A stretch of 64,000 nucleotides of DNA, from the NCBI RefSeq assembly GCF_006517175.1, contig NZ_CP041186.1:1329001-1393000 (forward strand), read 5' to 3'. The position numbers and the translations under genes are program-made. Below the pieces are notes generated by a model. The model was not told where the DNA came from, ran no database searches, and saw only the letters and a program-made list of their open reading frames with translations. Shown here piece by piece: positions 9,699 through 35,465 of this stretch. This DNA is from Persicimonas caeni. Its GTDB lineage: Bacteria > Myxococcota_A > Bradymonadia > Bradymonadales > Bradymonadaceae. The stretch's first letter is position 1. The number at the start of each line of letters is the position of its first letter.

Positions 9699-11306
9699 TC
9701 ACATCTGCGTCAGCAAATACGCGCCTGCGCCCAGAATTGCCAAGACGAGGAGCCCGATGAGCAAGATGGCGGCCTTGCCGACGGCCTGCTTGTCGGGCTG
9801 ATGGTTTTTAGGCACCTGCTCGACCGGCGGTGTCTGCTGCTGGGTGGGCTGGGGCTGTTGCGTGGGCGGCGGCTGTTGAGGCTGCTGATTCGGCCCGCGT
9901 CCGCTCGGGTTCGGTGGACTCTGCTGGCCGCCGGAGTTCATCAACGCGTCTCCCTGGCGGCCTTGGCCCTGCTGGGGCGAGCGCTGGTTCTGCTGCGGGC
10001 GCTGCCGTTTCTGTTGCGCCTGTTGCTTCTTTTTCTTCGGGTCGGGCTTGGGTCCCTTGATGGCCTGCATCGACTGGGTCGCTCGAGCGACGTCTTGAAG
10101 ACCTCCCTCTTGCCAGCTGTCCGAGTCACTGCCTGCGGGCGCGCCATGGGGAGGCTCGCCGCCTTCGAAACCGCCGGCGAAATCCTCGCCGCCAAAGCCA
10201 AGGTCCATCCAATCGCGCGGGTCTTCGCCCTCGCCGTCGTACTCGCCGCTCGCCTCGGAATCTTGGGCGATCTGGCCGTAGTGCTCGGCCATGAACAGGT
10301 CGAGATTGCCCATCTCCTCGAGGGACATGAGCTGATTGAGTTCGCGCTGGACCTCTTGGCCGGCAGCCACGTCGGCGGCGGTGGTCTTGTCGTCCTTCTT
10401 GTCGAGCACGCTCTCGACCAGCTGAGCGATGTCGAACGCCGAGACGACCATGCCGTGTGAGAACAAAAAGCCTGCCAGCGCCCGCCCCATCTCTTCGGCA
10501 CTCTGGTAGCGCGTCGCAGGGTCTTGGGTCAGCGAACGCGCCAAGATTTGCTGCAGATCCCTGGGGATCTCGCGGCCGTATTTGGACAGCGGCGGAATCT
10601 TGGCTTGCTGGACCTGCTTGAGCGTGTCGTAGTCGCTCTTGCCCAAAAAGAGTCGCCGCCCGGCGAGCATCTCCCACAGGACGATGCCCACGGCGAAGAT
10701 GTCGGTCCGCGCGTCGACGTCCTCTCCGTTGGCGGCCTCGGGTGACAGATACCCGAACTTGCCTTTGACCACGCCCGGATCGGTAATCTCGGCCTGGCTC
10801 TTGGCCTTGGCCAGACCGAAGTCGGTGATCTTGACCTCGCCCTCGCGGCTCATCAGCACGTTGGGCGGGCTGATGTCGCGGTGGACGATGCTCAAGTGGT
10901 TGTCTTGCTGGTCACGCTTCTGGTGCGCGTGAGCGAGCCCTTTGCACACCTCCAAGGCGATGTAGACGGCCTGCTCGACCGGCAAACGCTGCTTTCGCTC
11001 GCCCAGAAGCTGGATGATCTTTTTGAGGTTGGTGCCGTCGACGAACTCCATGACGATGAAGTAGGTGCCGTCGGCAATACCCAGATCGAAGACCTGGACG
11101 ATGTTGGTGTGGTTGAGGTGGAGGCTGACCTTCGCCTCGTCGAGGAACATGCGCACGAAGCGCTCGTTCTGGGTCAACGACGGCAGAACGCGCTTGATGG
11201 CGACCAACTTCTGGAAGCCCTGCAAGCTGGTGGAGTTGGCCTTGAAAACTTCGGCCATGCCACCGGCGTCGATACGTTCGATGACCTGATATCGCTGTTG
11301 GGCCAT
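9699..11306 (-). CDS. Membrane-anchored Hanks-type Ser/Thr protein kinase
   Basis: A 535-residue kinase with all catalytic features: Gly-loop DAGGMAEVF (13-21), ATP-binding Lys K38 (VAIKRV), catalytic loop HRDISPPN (D144) and DFG (D162), APE-like SPEA, so it should be active. The kinase domain ends near 300. Then follows a long linker that is acidic and then strongly Gln/Pro-rich (about 350-505), and a C-terminal hydrophobic helix (AAILLIGLLVLAILGAGAYL) only 2-3 residues from the end. This tail-anchored layout puts the kinase in the cytosol tethered to the membrane. It is read towards glgC with a 71-bp gap. Its targets are unknown. Confidence 0.9.
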   Translation of the reverse strand: MAQQRYQVIERIDAGGMAEVFKANSTSLQGFQKLVAIKRVLPSLTQNERFVRMFLDEAKVSLHLNHTNIVQVFDLGIADGTYFIVMEFVDGTNLKKIIQLLGERKQRLPVEQAVYIALEVCKGLAHAHQKRDQQDNHLSIVHRDISPPNVLMSREGEVKITDFGLAKAKSQAEITDPGVVKGKFGYLSPEAANGEDVDARTDIFAVGIVLWEMLAGRRLFLGKSDYDTLKQVQQAKIPPLSKYGREIPRDLQQILARSLTQDPATRYQSAEEMGRALAGFLFSHGMVVSAFDIAQLVESVLDKKDDKTTAADVAAGQEVQRELNQLMSLEEMGNLDLFMAEHYGQIAQDSEASGEYDGEGEDPRDWMDLGFGGEDFAGGFEGGEPPHGAPAGSDSDSWQEGGLQDVARATQSMQAIKGPKPDPKKKKQQAQQKRQRPQQNQRSPQQGQGRQGDALMNSGGQQSPPNPSGRGPNQQPQQPPPTQQPQPTQQQTPPVEQVPKNHQPDKQAVGKAAILLIGLLVLAILGAGAYLLTQM

Positions 11307-11378
11307 GGGGCGTCAGTTACCTGGTGTTGGTCGGCATGAAAGGTCCCAGCCAATATATGTCATCAGTGCAAGGCTGTC

Positions 11379-11493
11379 TATTTGAGCAGACAAACGACTA
11401 TTCAAGCAGACAAACTACAATTTGGGGGTCGTCCAATTCACCCAGGCGGGCCGATCGCACGCCCCTCAATTCGTTGTTTGTCCGCCATGATAG
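11379..11493. repeat. Imperfect palindromic repeat, family also at 51.3 kb
   Basis: The segment contains two direct copies of AGCAGACAAAC, then ATTTGGGGGTCGT, and ends with CCCTCAATTCGTTGTTTG, roughly the reverse complement of its left part. The same blocks (ATTTGAGGGTCGT, CCCTCAAATCGTTGTTTG) form the palindrome at 51277-51401. It occupies the 190 bp between the cyclase stop and the kinase start; nothing else was found there. Confidence 0.6.
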
Positions 11494-11496
11494 CTC

Positions 11497-13164
11497 TCAA
11501 TTCTCGTCGCGCGGCGGCGCGGTGCGCTGCGTATCCTCACGCTCGAAGCTGCCGGCGCCCTTCAGGCCGAGGATGCGGTAGATGTCGACGTGCTCCATCT
11601 TGCCTTTGAGCTTGGTCGGCGGCAACAATTCGTAGTCGACCATGTCGGCGACCTCGGCGAAGGTGTCCTCGCCGATAAGAATCTCGTCCGGGCCGGCCGC
11701 AGAGCAAAATCGGGCGGCGGTATTCACCACATCGCCCATCACCGTGTAGTTCATGCTCTTGGTCGAGCCCATATAACCGGCCACGACTTCGCCGGTGTTC
11801 AGACCGATGCCGATCTTGAAGGTCATCTCGCCGGCAGCCTCGCGCTCGGCGTTGTACTGCTCGAGCACCTGCTGCATCTCGATGACGCAACGCACGGCGC
11901 GCTCGGCGTCGTCCGGGTGGCCGATGGGCGCGCCCCAGATGGCCATGATCTCGTCGCCGATGAACTTGTCGAGGGTGCCCTCGTACTTGAAGATCACGTC
12001 GACCATCAGCTCGAAATACTCGTTGATGTTGTCGACGACTTCTTGGGGCGGCAACTGCTCGCTGACCGACGTGAAATTTCGGATATCGGCGAACATGACC
12101 GTGGCGTGACGAAGCTCGCCGCCCTTCTTGAGCTCGAGCCGGCCGCTGACGACCTCCTCGACAAGCTGGGGCGACAGGAGCCGGCGCATCTTCTCACGCA
12201 CGACGATCTCGGCCTCCATCTTCTTGAGCAGCCGGTGGTGCTGGACCATCGCGGCGGCCTGACGGGCAAAGCCGGTCAGAATCTGGAGGTCTTTCTCGGT
12301 AAACGCCCCGCTGGCGAGCTTCGAATCGAGGTGAATGACCCCGAGAATGCGCTTTTCATGGAGCAGCGGCACGCTCATCGTCGAGCGAATCTGCCCCAGG
12401 ATGATCGAGTGGCTGCCCGAAAAGCGCGAGTCGCTCATCGCGTCCGACGAGAGCACGGCCTGCTTCTCCTCGCATACCTCGTTGAGGATGGTCTGGCTGA
12501 TGCGCACGTCGTCGACGTCGCCGTCGTCTCCCTGGCGCGATTTGACGACCATGGGCACGAGGCTGTCGGACTCTTCGGGGCGCAGCAAAATCACGCCGCG
12601 GTCGGCCGGAAAGATCTCGAATGCCTTGTCGAGGATCTTTTGCAGCAGCACCTCGAGGTCCATCTCCACGCCGATCGACTGGCTGAGCTCGTGGGCGATG
12701 CGCAGCTTCTCGTAGTCGCGGCGCACCGTGGCGTCGTCGCGAATCGTCGATTCGGGCAAAAACCGGTCTTGAACCTGGTGGGCGAGCTTGCTGCGGATAT
12801 GAGTCTGCAGATCGTCGGAGTGGATGGTGACCCGACCACCGCGCGTCTCGGTAAACGAGTCGGTGTTGGGCTCCCGCTCCTCGTGATAGAACATGTCGGT
12901 CGAGCCGACAGTGATGCGATCACCATCGCTGAGGCGATGGCCGTCCTGGATCAGCGAACCGTTGACGTAGGTGCCGTTTCGACTACCACCGTCCTGAACG
13001 GCAAAGCCGCCGTCGGGCAGGGCCACGACCTCGGCGTGCTGCTTCGAGACCACTCGGTCCAAGATTTGAATGGCTTGGTCCGGGTGGCGCCCAATAGAGG
13101 TTCGCTTCCCCAATTGGTGTTCGTGGAGAACACCACGCGCATCTCGGTATGACAGCTTCGCCAT
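11497..13164 (-). CDS. FHA-GAF-class III adenylate cyclase
   Basis: A 555-residue signalling protein. An N-terminal FHA domain (about 20-95; TSIGRHPD, SKQHAEV, GSRNGTYVN) binds phosphothreonine. A GAF domain (about 165-315) follows a helical linker. The C-terminal class III cyclase domain (about 345-520) has both metal-binding Asp residues, D360 in FADIRNFT and D404 in GDEIMAIWG, and the transition-state region NYTVMGDVVNTAAR. The Lys of DKFIGDE suggests adenine specificity, so cAMP is the likely product. FHA plus a neighbouring Ser/Thr kinase implies that phosphorylation controls the cyclase. It has no membrane segment. The gene reads towards the kinase gene with 190 bp between. Confidence 0.9.
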   Translation of the reverse strand: MAKLSYRDARGVLHEHQLGKRTSIGRHPDQAIQILDRVVSKQHAEVVALPDGGFAVQDGGSRNGTYVNGSLIQDGHRLSDGDRITVGSTDMFYHEEREPNTDSFTETRGGRVTIHSDDLQTHIRSKLAHQVQDRFLPESTIRDDATVRRDYEKLRIAHELSQSIGVEMDLEVLLQKILDKAFEIFPADRGVILLRPEESDSLVPMVVKSRQGDDGDVDDVRISQTILNEVCEEKQAVLSSDAMSDSRFSGSHSIILGQIRSTMSVPLLHEKRILGVIHLDSKLASGAFTEKDLQILTGFARQAAAMVQHHRLLKKMEAEIVVREKMRRLLSPQLVEEVVSGRLELKKGGELRHATVMFADIRNFTSVSEQLPPQEVVDNINEYFELMVDVIFKYEGTLDKFIGDEIMAIWGAPIGHPDDAERAVRCVIEMQQVLEQYNAEREAAGEMTFKIGIGLNTGEVVAGYMGSTKSMNYTVMGDVVNTAARFCSAAGPDEILIGEDTFAEVADMVDYELLPPTKLKGKMEHVDIYRILGLKGAGSFEREDTQRTAPPRDEN

Positions 13165-13353: not shown

Positions 13354-14691
<1,338 letters not shown>

Positions 14692-14726
14692 GCGCCAACC
14701 TCTGAAGGCGCGCACTCCCTCGACAT

Positions 14727-14945
14727 CTTCCTCTCCGCCCGAGGCGCAGCCGAGGGATGGAGAGGACCGAGGAGAGGCCTCCCTTTCCACGCAGCGTAGC
14801 GGAGTGGAGAGGGACCGAGGGAGAGGCCTCTTCTTTTGCATCTTTTCTCTTTTCGCACGCCTACCTTCCTCCTCCTCGATCCTCCTCCACTTCGCTTCGC
14901 TCGCGGAGGAGGGGTCCCCTCCTCGGTCCTCCCCACTTTATGACT
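14727..14945. repeat. Dispersed GGAGAGGACCGAGG hairpin repeat, several units
   Basis: About four units of a repeat built from CCTCTCC, a purine-rich core with AGCGAAGCG or variants, GGAGAGG, and ACCGAGGAGAGG. The first two units read forwards (14727-14835), the next two are inverted (from about 14868). The family recurs at 22551, 30279 and 35161. Together with the promoter elements downstream it fills the 577 bp between the regulator gene and gspC; no open frame there has coding character. Confidence 0.8.
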
Positions 14946-14994
14946 GCAAAGCGGGGAGGAAGATGTCGGATTGTCGGCCGGTTTCCAGGCGCGT

Positions 14995-15047
14995 TGACAT
15001 TTTGTCACTCGATCCCCTCCCAATCCTGCCCGATTGACAAAATGTCA
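14995..15047 (+). promoter_or_regulatory. Paired inverted activator-binding sites upstream of gspC
   Basis: TGACATTTTGTCA (14995-15007) and TGACAAAATGTCA (15035-15047) are exact reverse complements, each itself near-palindromic, with centres 40 bp apart (about four helix turns). They lie about 90-140 bp upstream of the expected transcription start, where enhancer-binding proteins usually act. The neighbouring NtrC-type regulator is the natural candidate ligand; this is an inference. Confidence 0.7.
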
Positions 15048-15110
15048 CAAACCTATGCTAAACCCGCTGCCCCACCTGCCCGTAGCGCCGCCCAGACGGC
15101 CTTTCGAGGT

Positions 15111-15126
15111 TGGCACGGCTCTTGCT
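15111..15126 (+). promoter_or_regulatory. Sigma-54 (-24/-12) promoter of the type II secretion operon
   Basis: TGGCACGGCTCTTGCT matches the sigma-54 consensus TGGCAC-N5-TTGCA/T with no mismatch, with GG and GC separated by 10 bp. A start point near 15137 would give a leader of about 130 nt before gspC. Confidence 0.85.
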
Positions 15127-15268
15127 CTAACTAGTAGTCGACCGTCCCGTGCTCCCGCGAGGGTGGGTTTGGAATGAACCTCTGGCAGGTGCTGTTTGCC
15201 GCAGTGACTCACTCCCGTTCGTCGTACGGACGTCTTGGACACTCTAGCCATCGAGCGTTTGGCTGATT

Positions 15269-16294
15269 ATGGAGAACTTTCTTCGAAAATACGGTTGGAC
15301 CGTCGCCCTGGCCCTGATCGCCATCGGTGCGTTCTTGCTGGCGCTGATGACCAACAACATCGTAGCCAGCCAACTGGCGCCGCTGACGGTGCCCAAGCTG
15401 CCCGACATGAGCGCCAAGCAGGCCGACGAGCCCGCCAAGCGCCAGCCCACGCGGCGTCGCGGCCAGAACTGGGACCGCACGATCGCGTCGCTGTGCCTGT
15501 TCGGTTGCCCCGACACCACGCCCAAGGACGAATGCGAAGGCGGCTGCCCCGACGGCCAAGAATGCCAGGCCGGTCAATGCGTGCCCGCCGAGGATCAGCC
15601 GCCGGTCGACTCGGACGTGCCTGTCTTGAGCGACCTCAACATGAAGTTGATGGGCGCGATGGTCGCCGACAATCCCGAATACTCGATGGCGCTCATCCGC
15701 GACGACAACTCCAGCGAAACGCTGGTGCTCAGCCCCGGTGACCTCGTCACCAACGGCGCCGAACTCGTCGAGATTCGCCGCGACCGGGTCATCCTCAAGC
15801 GCAACGGCCGCCTCGAGTATATCCGCATGGACAAGACCATCGGCGGCGACCCGAGCGCCACGACCGCGTCCACGCTCGACCGCACGCCGCGTCCCACCCC
15901 GATCAAGCAGCCGCCTCGCACCCGGCGCGCCTCGACGCGCGGCTCGGCGGGCGACTCGATCAAATCGGTGGGCCGCGACAAATTCGAGGTCGACCGCAAC
16001 GCCATCAACAAACAGATCGAAGACAAACAGGACCTGGCTCGCCAGGGCCGCGTGGTGCCCAACTACAAAAACGGCAAGCGCGACGGGCTCAAGCTCGTCG
16101 GCATCAGCCCCAACAGTGTGTATTCGAAGCTGGGCATCCAGAGTGGCGACGTGATCCACTCGGTCAACGGAAAAGAGATCAACACCTCGCAAGAGGCCAT
16201 GGAGCTGTTCGAGCGCATGCGCGACTCCGGTGACGTCACCGTCGAGATCGAGCGCCGCGGCCAGAAGCGAAAGCTGAATTACAATATCCGATGA
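15269..16294 (+). CDS. gspC: Type II secretion inner-membrane protein GspC
   Basis: A 341-residue GspC, which links the secretin to the inner-membrane platform. One N-terminal membrane helix (about 9-30) is followed by a periplasmic linker, the HR-like region with the pattern VLSDLNMKLMGAMVAD and LSPGDLVTNGAELVEI (about 118-190), a basic Thr/Arg-rich linker, and a C-terminal PDZ domain (about 255-341: NSVYSKLGIQSGDVIHSVNG). The linker between residues 70 and 105 has six Cys in 29 residues (C76, C80, C89, C93, C99, C104), not usual for GspC. It is the first gene after the sigma-54 promoter. The Shine-Dalgarno is poor. Confidence 0.9.
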   Translation: MENFLRKYGWTVALALIAIGAFLLALMTNNIVASQLAPLTVPKLPDMSAKQADEPAKRQPTRRRGQNWDRTIASLCLFGCPDTTPKDECEGGCPDGQECQAGQCVPAEDQPPVDSDVPVLSDLNMKLMGAMVADNPEYSMALIRDDNSSETLVLSPGDLVTNGAELVEIRRDRVILKRNGRLEYIRMDKTIGGDPSATTASTLDRTPRPTPIKQPPRTRRASTRGSAGDSIKSVGRDKFEVDRNAINKQIEDKQDLARQGRVVPNYKNGKRDGLKLVGISPNSVYSKLGIQSGDVIHSVNGKEINTSQEAMELFERMRDSGDVTVEIERRGQKRKLNYNIR

Positions 16295-16385
16295 GTACGA
16301 CGCCCCCTTCGAGCGCCCCACATCGGGGCTCTGGACGGGCGTCGGTTCAATAAGACGTTTTTACCGAATCTACGAGAAGTAGTTG

Positions 16386-18983
16386 ATGATTTCGATGCGA
16401 CGACGATTCCAGCGAACCTTTCTGGCTGTTTCGATCCTCGTGGGGCTGGCCGTACCGTCTGTGGCCGCCGCGCAGGACGTCCAGGGCAAAAAGCCGGGCG
16501 TGATCCAACGCGGCGGCGATCAAGCCGACGAAGAGCAGGACCAAGAGGACAACCAGGCGCAACAGCAACGCAACCGACGTCAAAACCAGGGCCAGCAACA
16601 GAAGCCCCAGGGGCAGGTGATCACCCCGCAGAACGTCGACCCCAACGAGCAGTACAACCTGCCGCCGAACTTCGACCCGAATTATCGGCCCAAGCGCACC
16701 CCGCGAAGCACCAAGGTGACGCTCGACTTTCGGCAGGCCCAGCTCGAAGAGGTCGTCAAATTCTTCGCGGCGGCGATGAACAAGAACTTCATCATCTCCG
16801 ACAGCCTGCAGGCCAACAAGACGATCACGATCATCTCGCCCGAAGAGGTGACCCTGGCGCAGGCCTACCGCGCGTTCGTGGCCGCCCTCGAGATGAACGG
16901 GCTGACGATCGTGCCGTTCGGTCAGTTCTCCAAGATCGTGCAGGCCAAAGAGGCGATCAGCTCGTCCATCGAGACCTACAGCGGCGACGAGCGCCTGCCC
17001 GGCGTGCCCCGCATGGTCACCGCCATCGTGCCGGTGGAGAACACGCCGCCCGATGAGATGGAGCAGATCATCGGCAAGTTCGCCAGCCAGTTCGCCACGA
17101 TCATCCCGTACGGCAGCAGCCTGATCATCACCGAGAACGCCTCGAACCTCGACCGGCTGCGCAAGCTCATCAAGCAGCTCGACCAGGACGAGGCTGTCCA
17201 GCAGGTCTACGTCTACGAGGTGCAATACGCCGAGGCCACCGATGTCCAGCAGAAGCTCATGGAGATCTTCGAGGCCGAACAAGGCAACCAGCAGACCAAC
17301 CGCCGCACGCGGCGCCGCAACACCAAGGCGCAGCAAGCGGCCACTGACGGCGGCGAAGGCGACCTCAACGTCCAGATCTCGCAGATCTTGGCCGACGAGC
17401 GCACCAACAAGCTCATCATCGTGGCCAACCCGCGCGACTTCGAAAAGATCCGCGAGATGATTGAGATTTTGGACGTGCCCACCGCCGTGGGCGGCCAGGT
17501 GCACGTGAAGTTCTTGGAGTACGCCGACGCCGAGGAGATCTCGTCGACCCTGTCGAACCTGACCTCCGGCCAGAACCAGCAGCAACGCCAGCGCACCGCC
17601 CGAGCTCGTGCTCGCGGCGGTGAGGGCGTCGCCGGCCAGGTCGCCGCGCTCCTCGAGGGCGAGGTCCAGATCACCGCCTACAAGCCGAACAACGCGCTGG
17701 TCGTGACCGCTTCGCCCAAAGACTACGTGGCCCTCGAGACGGTCATCGACCTCCTCGATCGGCCCCGCAAGCAGGTCTACGTCGAGGCGGTCATCCTCGA
17801 GATCGCCATGGACAACGACATGCAGTACGGCATGGGCGTGACCGCGGTCAGCGGCCAGGACTACGACGGCATCATCCCCGACTCCGCCCAGGAGAGCGGC
17901 CTCATCGAGGACACCCAGGGCGGCATCATCGGCCAGTCGAACTTCCAGGGGCTCACCTCTCTGTTCGGCGGCGGCCTCGCCGGCTCCATCGGCCTCATCG
18001 GTCCGATTGCTACGATTCCGGGCACGGAAATTTCACTGCCGGCCTTCGCGTTGACGCTGCAAGCTTCGCAGACTGACCGTTCTGTGAATCTGCTGTCGGC
18101 TCCGGCCGTGATGACCATGGACAACGAAGAGGCCGAGATCGTGGTGGCCGACCGGGTGCCGTTTGTGCGCGGTCTGGCCAGCGGCGCCGGCGGCCTGGGC
18201 GGCCTCGGCGCGCTCAGCGGCCTGGCCAGCCAAGCCGGTGGGCAAAACGCCGCCGCCGGACTCGGCGGCCTCGGCGCGCTCGGCGGCCTGGGCGGGCTCA
18301 TCTCGCCCATCGAGTACGAGGACGTCGGCATCACGCTTCGCATCCTCCCCCAGATCAACGAGAGCAACTTCGTTCGCCTCGAGATCGACCAAGAGGTCAG
18401 CGACATCAAAGGGGCGAGCAACCTGGGAAGTGAAATCCCCACTCGCACCAAGCGCACCACCAAGACGGTCGTGCTGGTCGAGGACCAGTCGACCATCGTC
18501 ATCGGCGGTCTGATGAAGGAGCGCGAGTCGAAGACGGTCACCAAGATTCCGTTCCTGGGCGATATCCCGGTCATCGGCTTTCTGTTCCGCAACACCGGCA
18601 CCACCAAGACCAAGCAGAACCTGGTGCTGATGCTCACGCCCTACATCATCGAGAGCGAGGCGGACGTCCGAAAGATCTACGAGCGCAAGATGGAAGAGCG
18701 CCGCGAACTGGCCAAGCTCTTCAAAATCCAGCGCAAAGAGTACACCGCGGCGGTCAACTACCAGAAGACCAGCGGCCTCATCGAGCGGATGCGCAATCAG
18801 CTCTCCGCAGCCGAGCGCAAGGCCAAGGCGCGCCAAGAGGCGCTCGAGGCCTTCGAGAACAAGGGCCCGCGCTACCAGATTCTGGGCGAGGAGCCCCAGC
18901 CCCAGCCCGAGCAGCAAGAGCAGCCGGGAGAACAAGAGCAAGAAGCACCCGCGCAGCCGCAAGGCGAGCCGGAACAGCAGTAA
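16386..18983 (+). CDS. gspD: Type II secretion secretin GspD
   Basis: An 865-residue outer-membrane secretin. A signal peptide (ending AAAQ) is followed by a Gln-rich linker (about 30-95), the N0 domain (KVTLDFRQAQLEEVVKFFA, about 112 on), N1-N3 repeats (VTAIVPVENTPPDEMEQII; VYEVQYAEATDVQQ; VKFLEYADAEEIS) and the secretin core from about 465 (RKQVYVEAVILEIA) to about 755 (LVLMLTPYII). A Gly/Leu-rich insertion (about 597-640) lies in the core near the gate region. The C-terminal 100 residues are charged then Pro/Gln/Glu-rich and may be the pilotin-binding part. ATG 16386 is preferred over a TTG one codon upstream. Confidence 0.95.
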   Translation: MISMRRRFQRTFLAVSILVGLAVPSVAAAQDVQGKKPGVIQRGGDQADEEQDQEDNQAQQQRNRRQNQGQQQKPQGQVITPQNVDPNEQYNLPPNFDPNYRPKRTPRSTKVTLDFRQAQLEEVVKFFAAAMNKNFIISDSLQANKTITIISPEEVTLAQAYRAFVAALEMNGLTIVPFGQFSKIVQAKEAISSSIETYSGDERLPGVPRMVTAIVPVENTPPDEMEQIIGKFASQFATIIPYGSSLIITENASNLDRLRKLIKQLDQDEAVQQVYVYEVQYAEATDVQQKLMEIFEAEQGNQQTNRRTRRRNTKAQQAATDGGEGDLNVQISQILADERTNKLIIVANPRDFEKIREMIEILDVPTAVGGQVHVKFLEYADAEEISSTLSNLTSGQNQQQRQRTARARARGGEGVAGQVAALLEGEVQITAYKPNNALVVTASPKDYVALETVIDLLDRPRKQVYVEAVILEIAMDNDMQYGMGVTAVSGQDYDGIIPDSAQESGLIEDTQGGIIGQSNFQGLTSLFGGGLAGSIGLIGPIATIPGTEISLPAFALTLQASQTDRSVNLLSAPAVMTMDNEEAEIVVADRVPFVRGLASGAGGLGGLGALSGLASQAGGQNAAAGLGGLGALGGLGGLISPIEYEDVGITLRILPQINESNFVRLEIDQEVSDIKGASNLGSEIPTRTKRTTKTVVLVEDQSTIVIGGLMKERESKTVTKIPFLGDIPVIGFLFRNTGTTKTKQNLVLMLTPYIIESEADVRKIYERKMEERRELAKLFKIQRKEYTAAVNYQKTSGLIERMRNQLSAAERKAKARQEALEAFENKGPRYQILGEEPQPQPEQQEQPGEQEQEAPAQPQGEPEQQ

Positions 18984-19016: not shown

Positions 19017-20753
19017 ATGTATAATCGCCAGAGACTTGGTGAAATCCTGATCCAGCGGGGACACGTCACGGCCGACGCCGTCGACAAGGCCCTGCGCCAG
19101 CAGCGCGACAAAGGCGGCCTCATCGGCCAGATCTTGATCGCGATGGAGGCGGCCTCTGAGAAGCAGGTCATGGAGGCGGTCGCCGAGCAACTCGACTACC
19201 CCTTCCAGGCCGAGCTCGACGCCGAGGCGATCGAGCTGGGGCTCCTCGAGAAACTCCAGCTCGGCTACTCGCGCGAAAACCGCGTGCTCCCCTTCGACGT
19301 GCGCGACGGCTATATCCTGGTCGCCACCGACGACCCGCTCAACGTCGAGGCGCTCGATGAGATCCGCTTCTTGAGCGGCAAGGAAGTCCTGCCGGTCGTG
19401 GTGCCCACAAGCCCGCTGCGTGACGCCATCAACAAGGCGTTCGACCGCAAGAGCCGCCAGCTCGGCGCCGGCTTGGACGAGCTCGACGAGGCCGAAAGCC
19501 CGCACGCCGAAGACGCCAGCATCGACATCAACGATCTGCTCGACGCCGGCGACGACGACGAGGCTCCGGTCATTCGCTTCGTCAACAGCCTGTTCGTGCA
19601 GGCCGTTCGCGAGCGTGCCAGCGATATCCACATCGAGCCGGGCGAAAAAGACCTGACGGTGCGCTTTCGCATCGACGGCGTCCTCAAAGAGATCGCCCAT
19701 CCGCCCAAGCGCTTCCACTCGTCGATCATCACGCGTGTGAAGATCATGGCGGGCCTCGACATCGCCGAGAAGCGCCTGCCCCAGGACGGCCGCATCCGCA
19801 TCAAGATGGCCGGCAAGGACATCGACATTCGTGTGGCGACCGCCCCGGCGGTCCACGGCGAGCGCATCACGATGCGTCTCCTGGACAAGTCGGCGGTTCT
19901 GCTCAACGTGCGCGACATCGGCCTCAAGAAGTCCGACCAAGAGACGTTGCTCAAGCTCATCCACCGGCCCAACGGCATCGTGCTGGTCACCGGCCCGACC
20001 GGCTCGGGTAAGACGACCACGCTGTACTCGTCTTTGAGCGAGATCAACACCCCCGACAAGAATATCCTGACCATCGAGGATCCGGTCGAATACCAGCTCG
20101 AAGGCATCAGCCAGATGCAGGTCAACCCGAAGATCAAGCTGAACTTCGCCACCGGCCTGCGCAGCTACCTTCGCCACGACCCCGACGTCATCATGGTCGG
20201 TGAGATTCGTGACCTCGAGACCGCCGAGATGGCCATTCAGGCCTCGCTGACCGGTCACTTGGTCTTCTCGACCCTGCACACCAACGACGCCGCCAGCGCG
20301 TTCACCCGTCTGATCGACATGGGCGTCGAGCCCTTCCTGGTCAGCTCGACGGTGATCGCCTCTCTGGCCCAGCGCCTGGTGCGCCGGCTGTGCTCGAACT
20401 GCAAAGAGCCGTACGTGCCCGACGCCACCGTACTCGAGGAAGTCGGCCTGACCAAAGCCGACCTCGACCGCGTCGGCGGCCACGTCTTCCGCGCCCGCGA
20501 AGGCGGCTGCGAAGAGTGCATCAGCCTCGGCTACCGCGGCCGTACCGGCATCTACGAGGTCTTGAGCGTCGAGGACTCGGTCAGAAACCTGATCATGAAC
20601 CGCGACGACGCCTCCAACATCAAGCGCGAGGCCTGCAACCACGGCATGGACACGCTGCGCGAGGACGGCGCGGTCAAGATTCTGCAGGGTCAGACGAGCA
20701 TCGAAGAGGTGCTGCGCGTGACTCAGGAAGATAGTGTTTCGGAGGCGGCTTAA
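19017..20753 (+). CDS. gspE: Type II secretion ATPase GspE
   Basis: A 578-residue hexameric ATPase powering pseudopilus assembly. It has the MshEN/T2SSE N-domain (LGEILIQRGHVTADAVDKAL), a linker rich in Asp, Walker A GPTGSGKTT (about 326-334), Asp box and Walker B VIMVGEIRDLET (about 387-398), and the zinc-binding CM domain with CSNC near 459 and GGCEEC near 499. Length and motifs are those of an active enzyme. The stop codon shares its last A with the gspF start (TAATG), so the two are translationally coupled. Confidence 0.95.
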   Translation: MYNRQRLGEILIQRGHVTADAVDKALRQQRDKGGLIGQILIAMEAASEKQVMEAVAEQLDYPFQAELDAEAIELGLLEKLQLGYSRENRVLPFDVRDGYILVATDDPLNVEALDEIRFLSGKEVLPVVVPTSPLRDAINKAFDRKSRQLGAGLDELDEAESPHAEDASIDINDLLDAGDDDEAPVIRFVNSLFVQAVRERASDIHIEPGEKDLTVRFRIDGVLKEIAHPPKRFHSSIITRVKIMAGLDIAEKRLPQDGRIRIKMAGKDIDIRVATAPAVHGERITMRLLDKSAVLLNVRDIGLKKSDQETLLKLIHRPNGIVLVTGPTGSGKTTTLYSSLSEINTPDKNILTIEDPVEYQLEGISQMQVNPKIKLNFATGLRSYLRHDPDVIMVGEIRDLETAEMAIQASLTGHLVFSTLHTNDAASAFTRLIDMGVEPFLVSSTVIASLAQRLVRRLCSNCKEPYVPDATVLEEVGLTKADLDRVGGHVFRAREGGCEECISLGYRGRTGIYEVLSVEDSVRNLIMNRDDASNIKREACNHGMDTLREDGAVKILQGQTSIEEVLRVTQEDSVSEAA

Positions 20754-21982
20754 TGCCAGTTTACGAATACAAAGGCCTGGACGGGTCCGGAAAGACCGTC
20801 AAAGGAATCCAAGACGCCGACAGCCAGGGGGCGCTGCGCTCGCTTCTGCAATCCCAGGGCATCTACGTCACGGATATTTGGGAGGGCAAGGGAGGCAGAG
20901 CCAAAGCCTCCGGTGAGGTCGACTTCCAGAAGATGCTCGAGCGGGTCACCCTGCGCGACATCTCGGTGCTCACTCGCCAGATGGCCACGCTCACCCGCGC
21001 CGGCATCCCGCTCGTCGAGACGCTCAACGCGCTCAGCGAGCAGGTCGAAAAGGACGAGCTCAAGCGCACCATCAGCGACATTCGCCAGAAGGTCAACGAG
21101 GGCTCGAGCCTAGCCAAGGCGCTCAGCGACCACCCCAAGCACTTCAGCGACCTGTACGTCAACATGGTCAAGGCCGGCGAGAGCTCCGGTAACCTCGACG
21201 TCGTCCTGGAGCGGCTGACCGAATTCCTGGAAGCCCAGATCGAGCTGCGCGGCAAAGTCATCGGCGCGATGGTCTACCCGATCATCATGATGTTCGTCGG
21301 TGTCATCATCATGAGCGTGCTCTTCATCTTCGTCATCCCGAAGGTCACCCAGATCTTCCAGGACCAGAACGCCGCCCTGCCCTGGATCACCCAGCTGCTG
21401 ATCGGCACCAGCGAGGTCTTCGCCAGCGCCTGGTTCGTCATCCTGCCGGCCATCGGCGGGCTGATCTGGGCCTTCTTCAAGTGGAAGAACTCACCGGAGG
21501 GCAAAGACAAGTGGGACCGCTGGGTCTTGAAGGTCCCCGTCTTCGGCCCCCTGGTCCGCATGATCGCCGTGTCGCGCTTCGCCCGCACGCTGGGAACCCT
21601 CCTGGCCAGCGGCGTGCCGCTGCTGACGGCGCTCGACATCGTCAAAAATATCCTGGGGAACAACCGGCTCATCGAAGTCGTCGAAGACGCCCGCGTCAAC
21701 ATCCGCGAGGGTGAATCGATCGCCCAGCCCCTGAAGCGCTCGGGCGAGTTTCCGCCGCTTGTCACCCACATGATCGCCATCGGCGAGAAGAGTGGCCAGC
21801 TCGAGGACATGCTCGACAACGTGGCCACCGCCTACAACCAGCAGGTCGACATGCGCATCCAGGCGCTGACCACCCTGCTAGAGCCGTTGATGATCGTCGG
21901 CATGGGCGCCGGCGTGGCAGTCATCGTCTTCGCTGTCATGATGCCGATTCTGCAGCTCAATCAGACGATTGGAGCGGGATGA
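20753..21982 (+). CDS. gspF: Type II secretion platform protein GspF
   Basis: A 409-residue polytopic inner-membrane protein that forms the platform rotated or moved by GspE. Two cytosolic T2SSF domains (about 70-195 with LTRQMATLTRAGIPLVETL, and about 275-400 with FARTLGTLLASGVPLLTAL) precede and follow membrane helices (about 175-195, 225-245 and the C-terminal one at 380-400). All features are canonical. It overlaps gspE by 1 nt. Confidence 0.95.
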   Translation: MPVYEYKGLDGSGKTVKGIQDADSQGALRSLLQSQGIYVTDIWEGKGGRAKASGEVDFQKMLERVTLRDISVLTRQMATLTRAGIPLVETLNALSEQVEKDELKRTISDIRQKVNEGSSLAKALSDHPKHFSDLYVNMVKAGESSGNLDVVLERLTEFLEAQIELRGKVIGAMVYPIIMMFVGVIIMSVLFIFVIPKVTQIFQDQNAALPWITQLLIGTSEVFASAWFVILPAIGGLIWAFFKWKNSPEGKDKWDRWVLKVPVFGPLVRMIAVSRFARTLGTLLASGVPLLTALDIVKNILGNNRLIEVVEDARVNIREGESIAQPLKRSGEFPPLVTHMIAIGEKSGQLEDMLDNVATAYNQQVDMRIQALTTLLEPLMIVGMGAGVAVIVFAVMMPILQLNQTIGAG

Positions 21983-22049
21983 CGTTCTTTTAGGCAAAAA
22001 GCAACAACGTCGCACTGAACAGAACACGAAAACCCAAAAGGGAGTGAAA

Positions 22050-22487
22050 ATGAAGCTCATCGAAAACATCAAGGAAGCCCACTTGGCAGCCACCAAGCGC
22101 GGCCAACTCGCCAACACCCGCGGCATGACGCTCATCGAGATCATGATCGTCATCACGATCATGGCCAGCATCATGGGCGTGGTCGGCTTCTACGTCGTCG
22201 GCGCCCTCGAGGAAGCCAACATCAAGGAAGCCAAGATCCAGATGGGCAACCTGAACCAGTCGCTCGACATGTACTACACGCGCACCGACCCGCACGAGTA
22301 CCCGGAGAGCCTGCAGAAGCTGGTCGACCGCAACATCATGCAGGAAGTCCCCAGCGACCCGTGGGGCGAGCAGTACGTGTACCGTCGCGACAGCCGCAAC
22401 GAGTTCACCCTGATGAGCAAGGGCCCCGACATGACCGAGGGCACCGAGGACGACATCACCCCGGGCGGCGACGGCGGCGAGAGCTGA
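22050..22487 (+). CDS. gspG: Major pseudopilin GspG
   Basis: A 145-residue major pseudopilin. The start is ATG 22050, with GGGAG upstream; the open frame extends 27 codons further but without a ribosome site. The prepilin cleavage site RG|MTLIEIM lies after a 25-residue leader, longer than the usual 6-10, and the residue after the cut is Met rather than Phe. E5 of the mature protein is present. The conserved C-terminal DPWG (PSDPWGEQYVY) and calcium-loop region (LMSKGPDMTEGTEDDI) of GspG are visible. A 350-bp repeat-filled gap follows before gspH. Confidence 0.95.
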   Translation: MKLIENIKEAHLAATKRGQLANTRGMTLIEIMIVITIMASIMGVVGFYVVGALEEANIKEAKIQMGNLNQSLDMYYTRTDPHEYPESLQKLVDRNIMQEVPSDPWGEQYVYRRDSRNEFTLMSKGPDMTEGTEDDITPGGDGGES

Positions 22488-22490
22488 CCC

Positions 22491-22656
22491 GGCACATCCT
22501 CGGCGAGAGCTGTTCCGGCAACATCCTCGGCGAGAGGCGCTCCGGCAACCTCCTCCTCTCCGCCCGTAGCGAAGCGAAGGGATGGAGAGGACCGAGGAGA
22601 GGCCTCCCTTTCCGCCCGTAGCGAAGCGAAGGGATGGAGAGGGACCGAGGGAGAGG
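22491..22656 (+). repeat. Repeats inside the gsp operon, gspG-gspH gap
   Basis: Two direct copies of a roughly 27-bp unit (ACATCCTCGGCGAGAG) at 22493-22547 are followed by two tandem units of the dispersed hairpin repeat (CCCGTAGCGAAGCGAAGGG, GGAGAGGACCGAGGAGAGG). The remaining 180 bp to gspH show no gene; a processing site or internal promoter may lie there but none is recognisable. Confidence 0.75.
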
Positions 22657-22837
22657 CATTCAATGGCCTCAGACGCGCGAGTGATTAGGAGCGCGGGCAG
22701 CTTGCCCGCATCGGGCGACGTCGCCGGGGTCGCTTTTTGACCCCGCGACGGAGGCCGAAATCGAATGAGGAATGTAGCTCGCCGGCCCCTGTTAGTTATG
22801 CGCGCCGACATCAACGCATTGTAAAACCGAGCACCTA

Positions 22838-23539
22838 ATGACCCATCGCCCCACATCTCCCCTTCGCACGACGAAGGGCATGACCATCATCGAAGTGATG
22901 GTCGTGATGTTCATCGTCGCCGGCCTGGCGGGGATGTCGTTCTACGCCGTCGGCGCGCTCACCGCGACCGACCTGCGGGACGAGGCGATGCGCATGACCT
23001 CGGCGATGAAGTACACCTGGACGCGCGCCGCGGTAAACGGCGCGCAGTACCGCATGGTCATCGACCTCGAAGCGGGCGAATACCACACCGAGGTGACCGA
23101 CGCGCCGGTGGTCCAAGAGGCGCCGGACAACGCCGGCAGCTCCGAGGGCGTGCTGCCCGAGGAGGCTCAGGAGCGCGAGAACGCCAAGAAGGCCAACGCC
23201 TCCGACCTGTTCGGCGAGGAGAGCGACCCGTTCGGCGTGCACCGCGCGCCGACCTACGAGCAGGTCCAAGACGGCGCCATCGAGCCGCGCGCGTTCGAGT
23301 CGGGCGTCAAGATCAAAGAGGTGCACGTGGCCTATCAGGACACGCCCATCACCTCCGGCAAAGTGGCGGTGAACTTCTTTCCGGACGGCTTCCAGCAGCC
23401 GGTGATCATCGTGTTGACCAACGAGGAGGAGGACGACTTCTTCTCGCTCGTCAACGAGCCGCTGACGGGGCGCGTCAAGCTCTTCAGCAAGCGGATCGAA
23501 GATCGCGAGATGCTCGAGCATGGAGAGGACGATGATTGA
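22838..23539 (+). CDS. gspH: Minor pseudopilin GspH
   Basis: A 233-residue minor pseudopilin with prepilin site KG|MTIIEVMVV at residues 14-15 and E5 present, followed by the hydrophobic helix (MFIVAGLAGMSFYAV). The globular domain has an acidic, Ala/Glu-rich insertion (about 95-125). Position between gspG and gspI identifies it as GspH rather than another type IV pilin-like protein. It overlaps gspI by 8 nt. Confidence 0.85.
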   Translation: MTHRPTSPLRTTKGMTIIEVMVVMFIVAGLAGMSFYAVGALTATDLRDEAMRMTSAMKYTWTRAAVNGAQYRMVIDLEAGEYHTEVTDAPVVQEAPDNAGSSEGVLPEEAQERENAKKANASDLFGEESDPFGVHRAPTYEQVQDGAIEPRAFESGVKIKEVHVAYQDTPITSGKVAVNFFPDGFQQPVIIVLTNEEEDDFFSLVNEPLTGRVKLFSKRIEDREMLEHGEDDD

Positions 23540-24143
23540 GCGACTGAGATCACAACACGGTTTTACGCTCTTGGAAGTGCTCATCGCTCTGGCCATCTTG
23601 GCCAGCGCCCTGACTGTGCTCATCGGCACCACGGCCACGAGCAACCAGCAGGCGATCTACGCCAACAAGCTCACCCGCGTCTCGCAGCTCGCCCGCTCGA
23701 AGATGACCGACATCGAGTACGAGATGATGGACGAGGGCTTCCCCGACACCGTCCAACGCCTCGACGGCGACTTCGGTGAAGAGGGCTACGACCACATCAG
23801 TTGGGAGGCCGAGGTTTTCCCGGTCGAGATTCCCCCGGAGGTCAAAGAGGAGCTCATCGCGCAGGTCAACGCGCAGCTCTTCGGCGGCCAGGACACCCAG
23901 GGCGCGCTCAAGGGCAACGCGGCGTTCAGCGCCATGTTGCCGATGCTCGTCGCCCAGGTGCCCGAGATGATCAACCAGATCGGCAAGAAGATTCGCCGCG
24001 TCAAGCTGGTCGTCACCTACGATTTCCACGGCTCCGAAGAGACGATGACGGTCACCCAGTACATCGTCGACCGCGACCAGGCCGGCTTCGACCTGTTCGG
24101 CACCGGCGAGTCGGACTCGGGCAGCGAAGGGGGCGAAGAATGA
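23532..24143 (+). CDS. gspI: Minor pseudopilin GspI
   Basis: A 203-residue minor pseudopilin. ATG 23532 is chosen because GGAGAGG sits 7 nt upstream, inside the end of gspH; an ATG at 23520 is in frame but lacks such a site. The prepilin site HG|FTLLEVLIAL and the typical GspI pattern LAILASALTVLIG are clear; the ANKLTRVSQLARSKM segment also fits the family. Longer than usual (about 125) because of a C-terminal helical and acidic extension. The last 4 nt overlap gspJ (ATGA). Confidence 0.9.
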   Translation: MIERLRSQHGFTLLEVLIALAILASALTVLIGTTATSNQQAIYANKLTRVSQLARSKMTDIEYEMMDEGFPDTVQRLDGDFGEEGYDHISWEAEVFPVEIPPEVKEELIAQVNAQLFGGQDTQGALKGNAAFSAMLPMLVAQVPEMINQIGKKIRRVKLVVTYDFHGSEETMTVTQYIVDRDQAGFDLFGTGESDSGSEGGEE

Positions 24144-25003
24144 GCACCCTCCGTGACAAGCTGGCAAGGTGTGACAAGCTGACAACAATCGCCCAAGCGC
24201 ATCGCGCGCTGTGGGGTACGGACGACCGACGCGCACAGGCGGGCTTCACCCTCATCGAAGTCCTCCTCGCCGTCACCGTGCTCGCCACGCTCACCGCGAT
24301 TACGTGGGTGGGCGTGTCGGGCATGTTCAGCACCCGCGACTACATGACTGAGCGCTTCGAGCGCTACCAGATCATGCGCGTGGCCATGGACCGCATGGCC
24401 CGCGAGTTCTCCTCGGCGTACCTCGCCGGCCCGGAGCACGGCGGCGAGCCGCTTCCAGGCGAAGAGGAAGAGATGCAGGAAGCCCAGGACGGCAACGCCG
24501 GCAAGGTCGCCCAACTGCAGGCGCGCCGCGAGCCGGTCCAATTCGGCATGATCGGGCGCGACGACGAGGTCAACTTCACCAGCTTCGCCCACATCCGAAG
24601 CATCGCCGGCGAGAAGGCCAGCCAGCACGCCGAGATCGGCTACTTCACCGAGCGCAAGCGCGACAGCCGCACCGGCCGCCTGGTCAACAGCCTGATGCGC
24701 CGCGAGGACACCACCCTCGACGACGACATCACCGACGGCGGCAAGATCTACACGATGATCCCCAACATCGAAGACGTCGAATTCGAGTATTGGGACCCGG
24801 GCCCGCCCAGCGTGGGCACCATGGAGGAGATGGCCGAGGGCGACTGGACCGACAGTTGGGACACGACCAAGAGCGAGTTCGCCGGGCGATTGCCCACCCG
24901 CGTTCGCATCCGGGTGACCCTTCCGCCGCAAGACGAACGCGGCGACGAAGAGGTCTTCACCATCCAGACTCAGCTGGAGACGACTGAGGTGCTGGAGTTT
25001 TGA
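24140..25003 (+). CDS. gspJ: Minor pseudopilin GspJ
   Basis: A 287-residue minor pseudopilin. ATG 24140 overlaps the gspI stop (ATGA); the frame is open further upstream but lies within gspI. The prepilin site AG|FTLIEVLLAV is preceded by a very long leader of about 36 residues. The beginning of the gene contains a direct repeat (TGACAAGCTG twice), which is coding. FERYQIMRVAMDRMAREFS fits the J-family helix. It forms the pseudopilus tip with GspI and GspK. Confidence 0.9.
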   Translation: MSTLRDKLARCDKLTTIAQAHRALWGTDDRRAQAGFTLIEVLLAVTVLATLTAITWVGVSGMFSTRDYMTERFERYQIMRVAMDRMAREFSSAYLAGPEHGGEPLPGEEEEMQEAQDGNAGKVAQLQARREPVQFGMIGRDDEVNFTSFAHIRSIAGEKASQHAEIGYFTERKRDSRTGRLVNSLMRREDTTLDDDITDGGKIYTMIPNIEDVEFEYWDPGPPSVGTMEEMAEGDWTDSWDTTKSEFAGRLPTRVRIRVTLPPQDERGDEEVFTIQTQLETTEVLEF

Positions 25004-25005
25004 TC

Positions 25006-26613
25006 ATGCTCGATTTTATCGCCAAAGCGACGATGAGGACGCTCGACGCGCTCGACCGTCCCGCGCAAAACCCCATGAAGGGGCGCCCGCGGGGCATCGC
25101 GTTGATCGTGGTCACGGTCACAGTGGGCATCTTGGCCACCGCGGTGGTCGAGTACGCCTATTCGACCCGCGTCAACTTGTCGATGTCGTCGAATAACGCC
25201 GACAAGGTGCGCAGCTATTACCTGGCGCGCTCGGCGGTCAATATCAGCCGGCTTCTGCTGTCGTTCCAATACGCGCTGCAGTCGGAGTCGCGCGAGGCCG
25301 GCCGCGGCGAGGACGCCGACGACATGGCCCAGCTCATCAGCCGGGCGATGCGCCGCAGCAACTTCCAGATGTACCAGTACGTCGACCTTCTGATGAAACC
25401 GTTCAACTCGGGCAAGCTCGAAAGCCCGGTCGGCGGCATCGACCTGAAGGACTCCGGCGTCGAGGGCTTCGGGGAGTTCGGCGGCGATTTCACCGTCGAG
25501 ATCATCCCCGAGGAGGGCAAGGTCGACATCAACCGGTTCAACACCGACCAGATCTCGGAGGGCGACCTCCAGGAGATCTGCGCGATGATCGTCGACAGCT
25601 CCTACGACAGCATCTTCGAGGAGAAGGACGAGTGGGGAGAAACCCTCGACCGCGCGCTGGTCATGGAGCGGATGGTCAACTATATCGACCTGAACACGCA
25701 GGGCTTGGAGCTGACGCCCGACTGCACGATCCGCTCGTCGAGCGGCGACGAGCAGCGCCCTTACGATCGCGCCGAGCGCGACACCGAGCCGCGCGACGCC
25801 AAGCTGACCCACCTCGACGAGCTGTACCAGGTCGAAGGGGTCAGCGACACGTTCATGAAGGCGTTCGGCGAGCAGATGACCGTCTATCCGGTCGGCCGGC
25901 CGAACCTCAACGTGGCCACCGCCCCGATCTTCTACTCGGTGCTGTGCCGCAACGTCGAAGCCCAGAACGGCATCGCCCCGCGAAGTGGGAATGAAGGCAG
26001 CGCCTCACCGTTCAACTTGTGCGCTCGCGACCCGCAGATTCGCTCCCAGGTGCTCTATTTCGCCCTGGCGCTCGACGGGGTCCGCCAATTCTTCTCCGAC
26101 CCGATGTCGGTCTTGATGGCCTACGTGGGCAGCACCGAGAGCAAGCTGCTGCCGTCGGCCAAAAAGGGCCAGCCGGTCGCGTTTTTGAGCGTCAGCCAGC
26201 TCCCCTCGTATGTCGAGGATTTCAAGCGCAATCCGCAGGTGATGGCGCAGTTTCTGATGTACTCGCCGACCTACCAGCAACTGGTGGCGGCCAACCCGGC
26301 CCTGCAGGTCGACCCGCTCAACCCGCAATTTCCCCAGTGGACGGTCAACTTCGACCGCACCGGGTTGATGCGGTCGGTCTCCTCGCGCACCCCGAGCATC
26401 TATCGGCTGCGCGCCAAGGGGACCTACGGGTCGAGCGAGACGGTCATCGAGACGGTGATCGACTTCGGCAAGACCGTGCGCCGGCTGCCCGGTGAGAAGC
26501 AATTGACCGAGAACGTTGACGACCCCGAGGAAGTCAAAGAGCTCAAGAAAGCGCTGCGTGAAACACGCGAAGCAATGCCGAAAGGCCGCGTGCTTTACTG
26601 GCGAGAAAAATGA
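25006..26613 (+). CDS. gspK: Minor pseudopilin GspK
   Basis: A 535-residue tip pseudopilin. Start at ATG 25006, 3 nt after gspJ, with GGAG upstream. The prepilin-like site PRG|IALIVVTVTVG lacks the fifth-position Glu, which is normal for GspK, and is followed by ATAVVEYAYSTRVN and SYYLARSAVNISRLLL. The helical GspK domain with helix-hairpin-helix-like segments (GKVDINRFN, YIDLNTQGLELTPDC, DELYQVEGVSDTFM) spans about 180-310. It is some 200 residues longer than typical GspK, with an additional C-terminal region. Confidence 0.9.
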   Translation: MLDFIAKATMRTLDALDRPAQNPMKGRPRGIALIVVTVTVGILATAVVEYAYSTRVNLSMSSNNADKVRSYYLARSAVNISRLLLSFQYALQSESREAGRGEDADDMAQLISRAMRRSNFQMYQYVDLLMKPFNSGKLESPVGGIDLKDSGVEGFGEFGGDFTVEIIPEEGKVDINRFNTDQISEGDLQEICAMIVDSSYDSIFEEKDEWGETLDRALVMERMVNYIDLNTQGLELTPDCTIRSSSGDEQRPYDRAERDTEPRDAKLTHLDELYQVEGVSDTFMKAFGEQMTVYPVGRPNLNVATAPIFYSVLCRNVEAQNGIAPRSGNEGSASPFNLCARDPQIRSQVLYFALALDGVRQFFSDPMSVLMAYVGSTESKLLPSAKKGQPVAFLSVSQLPSYVEDFKRNPQVMAQFLMYSPTYQQLVAANPALQVDPLNPQFPQWTVNFDRTGLMRSVSSRTPSIYRLRAKGTYGSSETVIETVIDFGKTVRRLPGEKQLTENVDDPEEVKELKKALRETREAMPKGRVLYWREK

Positions 26614-26744
26614 ACAGAGAAGCAAAGAAGTAAAAAAGTAAGAAAGCAAAAGAGTCACAACTCACTGATGTGGCTCGACTGGAGCCTTTAGCTCTTTCGC
26701 TTTTTTGCTCTTTTGCTCTTTTGCTGAGTTTCCGAAGGAAACGT
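26614..26744 (+). other. Purine/pyrimidine inverted repeat between gspK and gspL
   Basis: A purine tract containing AGCAAAAGAG (26645-26654) is mirrored by CTCTTTTGCT (26708-26717 and again 26716-26725). The hairpin with its T-rich right arm could attenuate transcription within the operon, or stabilise the upstream mRNA. Confidence 0.45.
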
Positions 26745-28559: not shown

Positions 28560-29167
28560 TGGCGAATCCCAAACAATCGCTCTCGGCCAAAATGAGCGAC
28601 GCGTATTCGGACCTGACCGACCGCGAGCAAAAGCTTGTCATCGCCATGGCGATCATCTTGCCGTTGGTGGTCCTGGCGCTCATCGTGGGCATCTTCTCGC
28701 GCTCGCTCGGCGATATCGAGTCGCAGACGCAGGCCTACGAGAACGCCCTCGAGCTGGTCGCAGCCGGTGGGCCGAGCTACCTCGAAAAGAAGAACGCCGG
28801 CGAAGGCAGCGGCGGGCTGGCCGACCAGTTCACCGAAGAGATCCTGACCAACAACGAGGTCAAGCTGACGAGCTTCATCGCCTCGAAGGCCTCGGCCGCC
28901 GGGGTCAAGGTCAGCAGCTACGACTCCGAGGAGATCCCCATCGGCTCGGGCGACAAGTCCGGCCCGATCATCGTCGAGAAGCGCGTCAAGGTCGACATCC
29001 GCGACGCCCAGCACGACGAGCTGTTGAAATTCCTCGAGGAGATCGAGACCAGCGGCGAGCCGGTGGTCATCAAGCGCATCGACATGCGCGGCAAGCACCG
29101 CAGCCCCGGCGAAGTGCGGGCGCGCGTGGAAGTTTCGACGTTCATCAAACGTGAGCAAAAGAGCTGA
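28559..29167 (+). CDS. gspM: Type II secretion protein GspM
   Basis: A 202-residue bitopic inner-membrane protein. ATG 28559 shares its A with the gspL stop. It has a short cytosolic start (YSDLTDREQKLVIAM), one membrane helix (about 25-45), a periplasmic coiled segment and a ferredoxin-like domain (VKVSSYDSEEIP; VVIKRIDMRGKHRS). The DREQKL element just before the helix is the usual mark of GspM. It partners GspL. Confidence 0.9.
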   Translation: MANPKQSLSAKMSDAYSDLTDREQKLVIAMAIILPLVVLALIVGIFSRSLGDIESQTQAYENALELVAAGGPSYLEKKNAGEGSGGLADQFTEEILTNNEVKLTSFIASKASAAGVKVSSYDSEEIPIGSGDKSGPIIVEKRVKVDIRDAQHDELLKFLEEIETSGEPVVIKRIDMRGKHRSPGEVRARVEVSTFIKREQKS

Positions 29168-29170
29168 TTC

Positions 29171-30277: not shown

Positions 30278-30278
30278 T

Positions 30279-30378
30279 CCTCCTCTCCTCCCGCAGCGAA
30301 GCGAAGGGAAGGAGAGGACCGAGGAGAGGATTCCCTTTCCACAAGCGAAGCGCAGTGGAGAGGGACCAAGGGAGAGGG
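30279..30378 (+). repeat. Dispersed hairpin repeat, two units after gspN
   Basis: Two forward units of the same family as at 14727 and 22551 (GCAGCGAAGCGAAGGG, GGAGAGGACCGAGGAGAGG; then CAAGCGAAGCGCAGTGG, GAGAGGGACCAAGGGAGAGG). They start 2 bp after the gspN stop and may act as an mRNA 3'-end hairpin. Confidence 0.75.
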
Positions 30379-35160: not shown

Positions 35161-35465
35161 GGGCCTCTCCCTCGATCCCTCTCCTTCCCTTCGCTTTGGG
35201 CGAGGATGGGTGGCCTCTCCCTCGATCCCTCTCCTTCCCTTCGCTTCGCTACGGGTGGAGAGGGGGGCCTCTCCTCGGTCCTCTCCTTCCCTCCACTTCG
35301 TTACGGGCGGAGAGGAAGACGTCGTTCTATCGGACTCTGTACAAGGTGCGTACTGGCAACATCTTCCTCCCCTGCGCGAAGCAAAGCGTAGCGTAGGGGA
35401 GGACCGAGGAGGGGACTCCTCCTCCGCGCAGCGAAGCGAAGTGGAGGAGGACCGAGGAGGAGGCC
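35161..35465. repeat. Largest cluster of the dispersed hairpin repeat
   Basis: About five or six units: three inverted ones (CTCTCCTTCCCTTCGCTTCG with GGGTGGAGAGG, from 35161) and, after a spacer with GTACAAGGTGCGTACTGG, two forward ones (GCGCAGCGAAGCGAAGTGG, GAGGACCGAGGAGGAGG). The spacer flanks GGAAGACGTCG and CATCTTCC echo the unit borders seen at 14721 and 14960. It fills most of the gap between the ABC-F gene and uvrA; the rest (35466-35608) shows nothing. Confidence 0.8.

Follow-up and report, generated by a model that had tools for sequence, protein, structure and literature searches.

The type II secretion (gsp) operon of Persicimonas caeni is very probably transcribed from a sigma-54 promoter under the activation of an NtrC-type regulator that is encoded immediately before the operon and acts from two dimer sites, and the arrangement of regulator, paired sites, promoter and gspC is, judging from comparison across genomes, a phylum-wide module of the Myxococcota. 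The locus was analysed within a stretch of 64,000 nucleotides (the window, with a G+C content of 64.3%), whose relevant features are collected in Table 1. In the mechanism that we infer from sequence, domain content, conservation and geometry, dimers of the regulator would bind two TGACA-N3-TGTCA palindromes separated by about four turns of the helix, and activation of the receiver domain, presumably by phosphorylation, would lead the protein to assemble into an ATPase ring. This ring would contact the sigma-54 holoenzyme via short-range looping and open the promoter, from which transcription would run through the whole operon.

Table 1. Regulator, control region and type II secretion genes, in window coordinates.
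Feature	Position	Strand	Basis or remark
NtrC-type response regulator, proposed activator	13354-14691	+	PF00072, PF00158, PF25601, PF02954 above cut-offs
Dispersed intergenic repeat copy	14700-14990	.	between regulator and sites; 121 genomic matches
Distal putative activator site TGACATTTTGTCA	14995-15007	.	centre 15001; motif TGNCA-N3-TGNCA kept before gspC
Proximal putative activator site TGACAAAATGTCA	15035-15047	.	centre 15041
Predicted sigma-54 (-24/-12) promoter TGGCACGGCTCTTGCT	15111-15126	+	all positions fit TGGCACG-N4-TTGCW
Predicted 5' leader of gsp mRNA	15137-15268	+	Rfam no match; fold z-score 0.84
gspC, first operon gene	15269-16294	+	PF11356 T2SSC, PDZ
gspD secretin	16383-18983	+	PF00263, PF03958, PF21305
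gspE ATPase	19017-20753	+	PF00437, PF05157
gspF platform protein	20753-21982	+	PF00482
gspG major pseudopilin	22044-22487	+	PF08334
gspH-gspN region	22838-30277	+	ORFs; PilM-like GspL

The predicted promoter TGGCACGGCTCTTGCT places its GG and GC elements 10 bp apart inside the consensus and is conserved before gspC, bearing out the perfect -24/-12 promoter proposed in an initial annotation of this DNA. Searched on both strands, the window holds no other perfect match to TGGCACG-N4-TTGCW (0.016 expected) and no other site that reaches at least 0.88 on the scale used for sigma-54 promoter scoring; across the 8.05-Mb genome about two perfect matches are expected by chance. The genome also encodes the cognate sigma factor, rpoN being present at genome positions 2438794-2439273 (PF04552). 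From the position of the promoter, transcription would start near 15137, which would centre the paired sites near -136 and -96. The idea that the gspC leader is structured or contains a riboswitch was considered and rejected, there being no Rfam match and an ordinary folding energy (z 0.84).

The two upstream sites, TGACATTTTGTCA and TGACAAAATGTCA, are exact reverse complements of each other with a centre-to-centre distance of 40 bp when read from the window sequence, just as the initial annotation had it. TGACA-N3-TGTCA occurs at nine places in the 8.05-Mb genome, and of these copies just the two listed in Table 1 stand close together; with an A/T core (TGACA-WWW-TGTCA) the motif is reduced to two copies, both at this locus, against an expectation of 0.13. 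The 40-bp pair remains a single genomic occurrence even when three mismatches are allowed over its 22 defined positions, so that a scan of the genome for other such pairs, which had been recommended along with the proposal, returned no second one. A second target in the P. caeni genome was therefore rejected, and the system looks here like a dedicated secretion switch.

Pfam domains and translation likewise agree with the earlier description of the preceding gene as an NtrC-type activator with an intact GAFTGA loop. Its product runs from a receiver through a sigma-54 AAA+ domain to a Fis-type helix-turn-helix (HTH_8) ending in LLDISTRTIYRKL, and the translation holds, besides the loop, the Walker motifs GESGTGKE and GGTLFLDE. 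In an alignment of orthologues the receiver keeps the phosphorylation residues DD/D/T/K (within VDDE, ITDLKM, MTAF and SKPIK) and looks functional. Compared with NCBIfam, the protein stays below every equivalog cut-off, its best model being AtoC at 468 of 714 bits. Paralogous activators are numerous, the genomes of the window's family giving about 29 scored matches each; among the paralogues is a PilR-like protein, encoded beside pilB/pilC-like genes in the P. caeni genome and only about 47% identical to the regulator.

No histidine kinase gene adjoins the regulator in the window locus by the Pfam content of its neighbours, and no histidine kinase domain was found among nine neighbours in six other regulator loci. 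A two-component pair with an adjacent histidine kinase was thus rejected, the upstream neighbours being a Ser/Thr kinase and an FHA-GAF-nucleotide cyclase (9699-13164), which lie divergent from the regulator. Their linkage to the regulator persists in many relatives and may point to a role in signalling. A tie between secretion and a phosphorelay, as the initial annotation envisaged, would suit the receiver, but no kinase that could bear it out was found in the loci checked.

Comparison across genomes lends the regulatory reading strong support. Full-length orthologues of the regulator are 65-82% identical within the window's family, and gspC follows the regulator in many relatives, other families of the class included. 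When 58 relatives were searched for paired TGNCAWWWTGNCA sites, with the reversed pattern as control, the pair was found at exactly one place in each of 26 genomes and the reversed pattern at none. In 23 of these 26, which are all those whose flank holds the next gene, gspC lies just downstream; two further genomes have the pair next to the regulator where the contig ends, and in the last, where it falls near the contig start, no gspC was found. Six genomes retain the pair before a gspC that no longer adjoins the regulator, indicating that the sites go with gspC rather than just with the tail of the regulator gene. A looser pattern gave matches in 44 of 379 genomes, and its matches in families f2, f30, f51 and f52 again stand before gspC and are accompanied by a sigma-54 site. 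The order regulator, gspC, gspD is repeated in Sandaracinaceae, Polyangiaceae (Sorangium), Labilithrix, Archangium and Hyalangium, with some of the sites weaker.

Across the Myxococcota, an orthologue of the regulator precedes gspC by no more than 1.5 kb, in the same orientation, at 76 loci. The pair reaches threshold in 73 of 103 distinct gspC upstream regions, which are related to one another and so do not count as independent events (dereplication at 65% GspC identity leaves 52 clusters); the corresponding figures are 0.15% for shuffled regions and none for 228 regions upstream of gspD, gspE or gspF. A -24/-12 promoter follows the pair in every one of the 73 regions, as compared with 6% in shuffles, and the spacing within the pair is 39-43 bp in 64 of them and 27-34 bp in the other nine. 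Conservation of sites and promoter before gspC, the absence of which would have spoken against the initial proposal, accordingly extends together with the regulator over the phylum. About 30 of the 103 regions fall below the pair threshold, some of them as weak pairs, and in some of these lineages the promoter may have shifted upstream of the regulator. In Kofleriaceae and related loci the gap between regulator and gspC measures about 90-170 bp and is free of sites, single good sites with weak promoters being found upstream of the regulator instead, so that regulator and gspC may there form one operon.

The geometry of the module is constrained as well. Measured between proximal site and promoter, the distances fall into groups of 59-62, 70-74, 80-85 and 90-94 bp, the window's own being 70 bp, and are best described by a period of 11.2-11.4 bp (R 0.63 over 47 dereplicated cases, a value reached by none of 5000 jittered nulls). 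They thus keep to one face of the helix, as binding to the same face and short-range looping would leave them.

That the adjacent regulator is the protein occupying the sites is supported indirectly, by its phylum-wide adjacency, by the recurrence of the motif at its own gene, and by a joint change of protein and sites in one family. Of 135 cases, 37 have the same palindrome motif before the gene of the regulator itself (0 of 2700 shuffles); all 37 lie outside the window's family, and the spacing is mainly 18-22 or 38-41 bp. The motif is thereby tied to the regulator protein, and the pattern suggests autoregulation. No such sites were found before the regulator gene in the P. caeni genome or its family, and the argument is for that reason drawn from other families. 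At a number of these loci the palindromes form arrays in steps of about 20 bp, often near the start of the regulator gene, where autoregulation could perhaps take the form of repression. As for the third line, the recognition helix reads G/D-I-A/S-T-R-T-I-Y-R in most site-bearing lineages, whereas in family f4 GMGRRTVYR or GVGRRTVYR replaces GIATRTIYR and the sites are absent, a loss that represents a single evolutionary event in one lineage. In three f4 loci almost no gap is left between regulator and gspC, and with their altered helix and missing sites these loci are candidates for a rewired binding specificity.

It is conceivable, if improbable, that gsp is indeed controlled through these sites and this promoter, but that the sites are occupied by another sigma-54 activator or palindrome-binding factor while the adjacent regulator works elsewhere. 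The abundance of paralogues would provide such a protein, the six genomes holding the pair at gspC with no adjoining regulator would be accommodated, and in Myxococcus xanthus the sigma-54 activator Nla28 has been reported to bind a type II secretion promoter at MXAN2511 (PMC9765219), so that sigma-54 control of type II secretion has a precedent. Nla28 is, however, a different activator, its promoter is not the one before gspC, and its half-site CT[C/G]CG[C/G]AG is unlike TGACA-N3-TGTCA. Nor is Nla28 control of type II secretion known to extend over the phylum. The regulator orthologue, on the other hand, adjoins gspC phylum-wide, an identical motif precedes its own gene, and f4 lost the sites together with the change in the recognition helix. 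Control of gsp by the adjacent activator, which the initial annotation had put forward as conjecture, is hence the better supported reading, and the pair stays with gspC even where gspC has parted from that activator.

Far less probable is a reading in which the palindromes bind a repressor or form a repeat without regulatory function, and gsp is expressed from a conventional promoter or by transcription continuing out of the regulator gene. Regulator and gspC do share a strand, and the gap of about 90 bp in f4 and in Kofleriaceae would allow co-transcription, yet an alternative sigma-70 promoter had to be rejected, as no sigma-70-like sequence was found in 14600-15300, and the -24/-12 promoter after the pair is both invariant and helically phased. 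Moreover, in the window a dispersed repeat splits the regulator from the site-promoter module and leaves the latter intact. Finally, although the consensus alone is weak in 8 Mb, chance likeness to consensus sequences can be dismissed, being refuted by the pair survey in 58 relatives, the position before gspC, and the 103-region survey with its fixed spacing and empty controls.

The intervening repeat explains an oddity of the window locus. In related loci of the same family the sites begin 17-92 bp past the regulator stop, and the distance of about 300 bp seen here arises because the gap holds a copy of the repeat, downstream of which the module continues undisturbed. The repeat is partly inverted, and further copies occur in the window at 22537-22657, 30277-30377 and 35162-35465. 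By Pfam the type II secretion core from gspC to gspG is complete (secretin, ATPase, platform protein, pseudopilins), and the genes beyond it start at 22838 (gspH), 23520 (gspI), about 24131 (gspJ), 25000 (gspK), 26670 (gspL) and 28550 (gspM), the start codons of gspJ and gspL having been assigned by inference, with gspN at 29171-30277. Related loci carry gspH-K in the same order downstream of gspG. Just beyond the operon, a minus-strand reading frame (31348-32397) resembles a transposase of the IS3 type.

The order of receiver, AAA+ domain with GAFTGA and Fis-type helix-turn-helix is that of regulators of the NtrC/DctD/ZraR/AtoC type (PDB 4l4u; 1ny5, NtrC1; 1ojl, ZraR), whose systems likewise place paired palindromic enhancer sites upstream of a -24/-12 promoter. 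What distinguishes the present case from these is its target, a type II secretion operon, and its predicted site TGACA-N3-TGTCA. PilR, which controls the type IV pilus gene pilA via sigma-54, is similarly a response-regulator activator encoded beside an evolutionarily related pilus-type machine, but is adjoined by its cognate membrane kinase PilS, whereas no such kinase adjoins the regulator here.

A probable counterpart lies in M. xanthus, where the NtrC-like activator gene nla4 is Mxan_2516 (PMC2875238) and GspD is MXAN_2514 (PMC3222651), two tags apart. Nla4 therefore very likely occupies the same place as the regulator does in the window, and given this position and the succession of regulator orthologue, gspC and gspD in a contig scan of Archangium and Hyalangium, it is probably the M. 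xanthus counterpart of the regulator. Nla4 has been linked to (p)ppGpp, growth and fruiting-body phenotypes (PMC4048283, PMC7910581). The open-access literature searched yielded neither a role for Nla4 in type II secretion nor a description of a dedicated, conserved sigma-54 activator of type II secretion beside gspC. A wider reading, possible but for the moment doubtful, is that one orthologous activator, that of the Nla4 group, became the dedicated sigma-54 switch for type II secretion early in the history of the Myxococcota and has remained so, its phased geometry kept throughout, and that the growth, stringent-response and developmental phenotypes of M. xanthus Nla4 arise partly via such ancestral control of secretion.

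Degradative enzymes leave the cell through type II secretion, by which predatory Myxococcota presumably draw nourishment from their prey. P. caeni is a predatory member of the Bradymonadales (PMC7188933), and expression of type II secretion genes rises during predation in M. xanthus (PMC10196010). If activation of gsp by the adjacent regulator holds true, the decision to secrete becomes testable via one regulator and one promoter, orphan regulators of the Nla4 type gain a candidate direct target together with a predicted binding motif, and the gspC regions offer an extensive natural collection in which to study how enhancers and promoters are spaced. Regulation by sigma-54 enhancer-binding proteins is itself known; the interest of the present system lies in the depth of conservation and in a probable target for orphan regulators.

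Pairs at another operon were also encountered in the phylum. Neither the P. caeni genome nor six relatives checked hold pair sites at homologues of this operon, whose products include an outer-membrane beta-barrel protein (PF13505) and one that looks secreted. At seven loci in three other families this operon is preceded by the same pair, as a rule together with a strong sigma-54 promoter, and the beta-barrel operon is likely a second target in those families.
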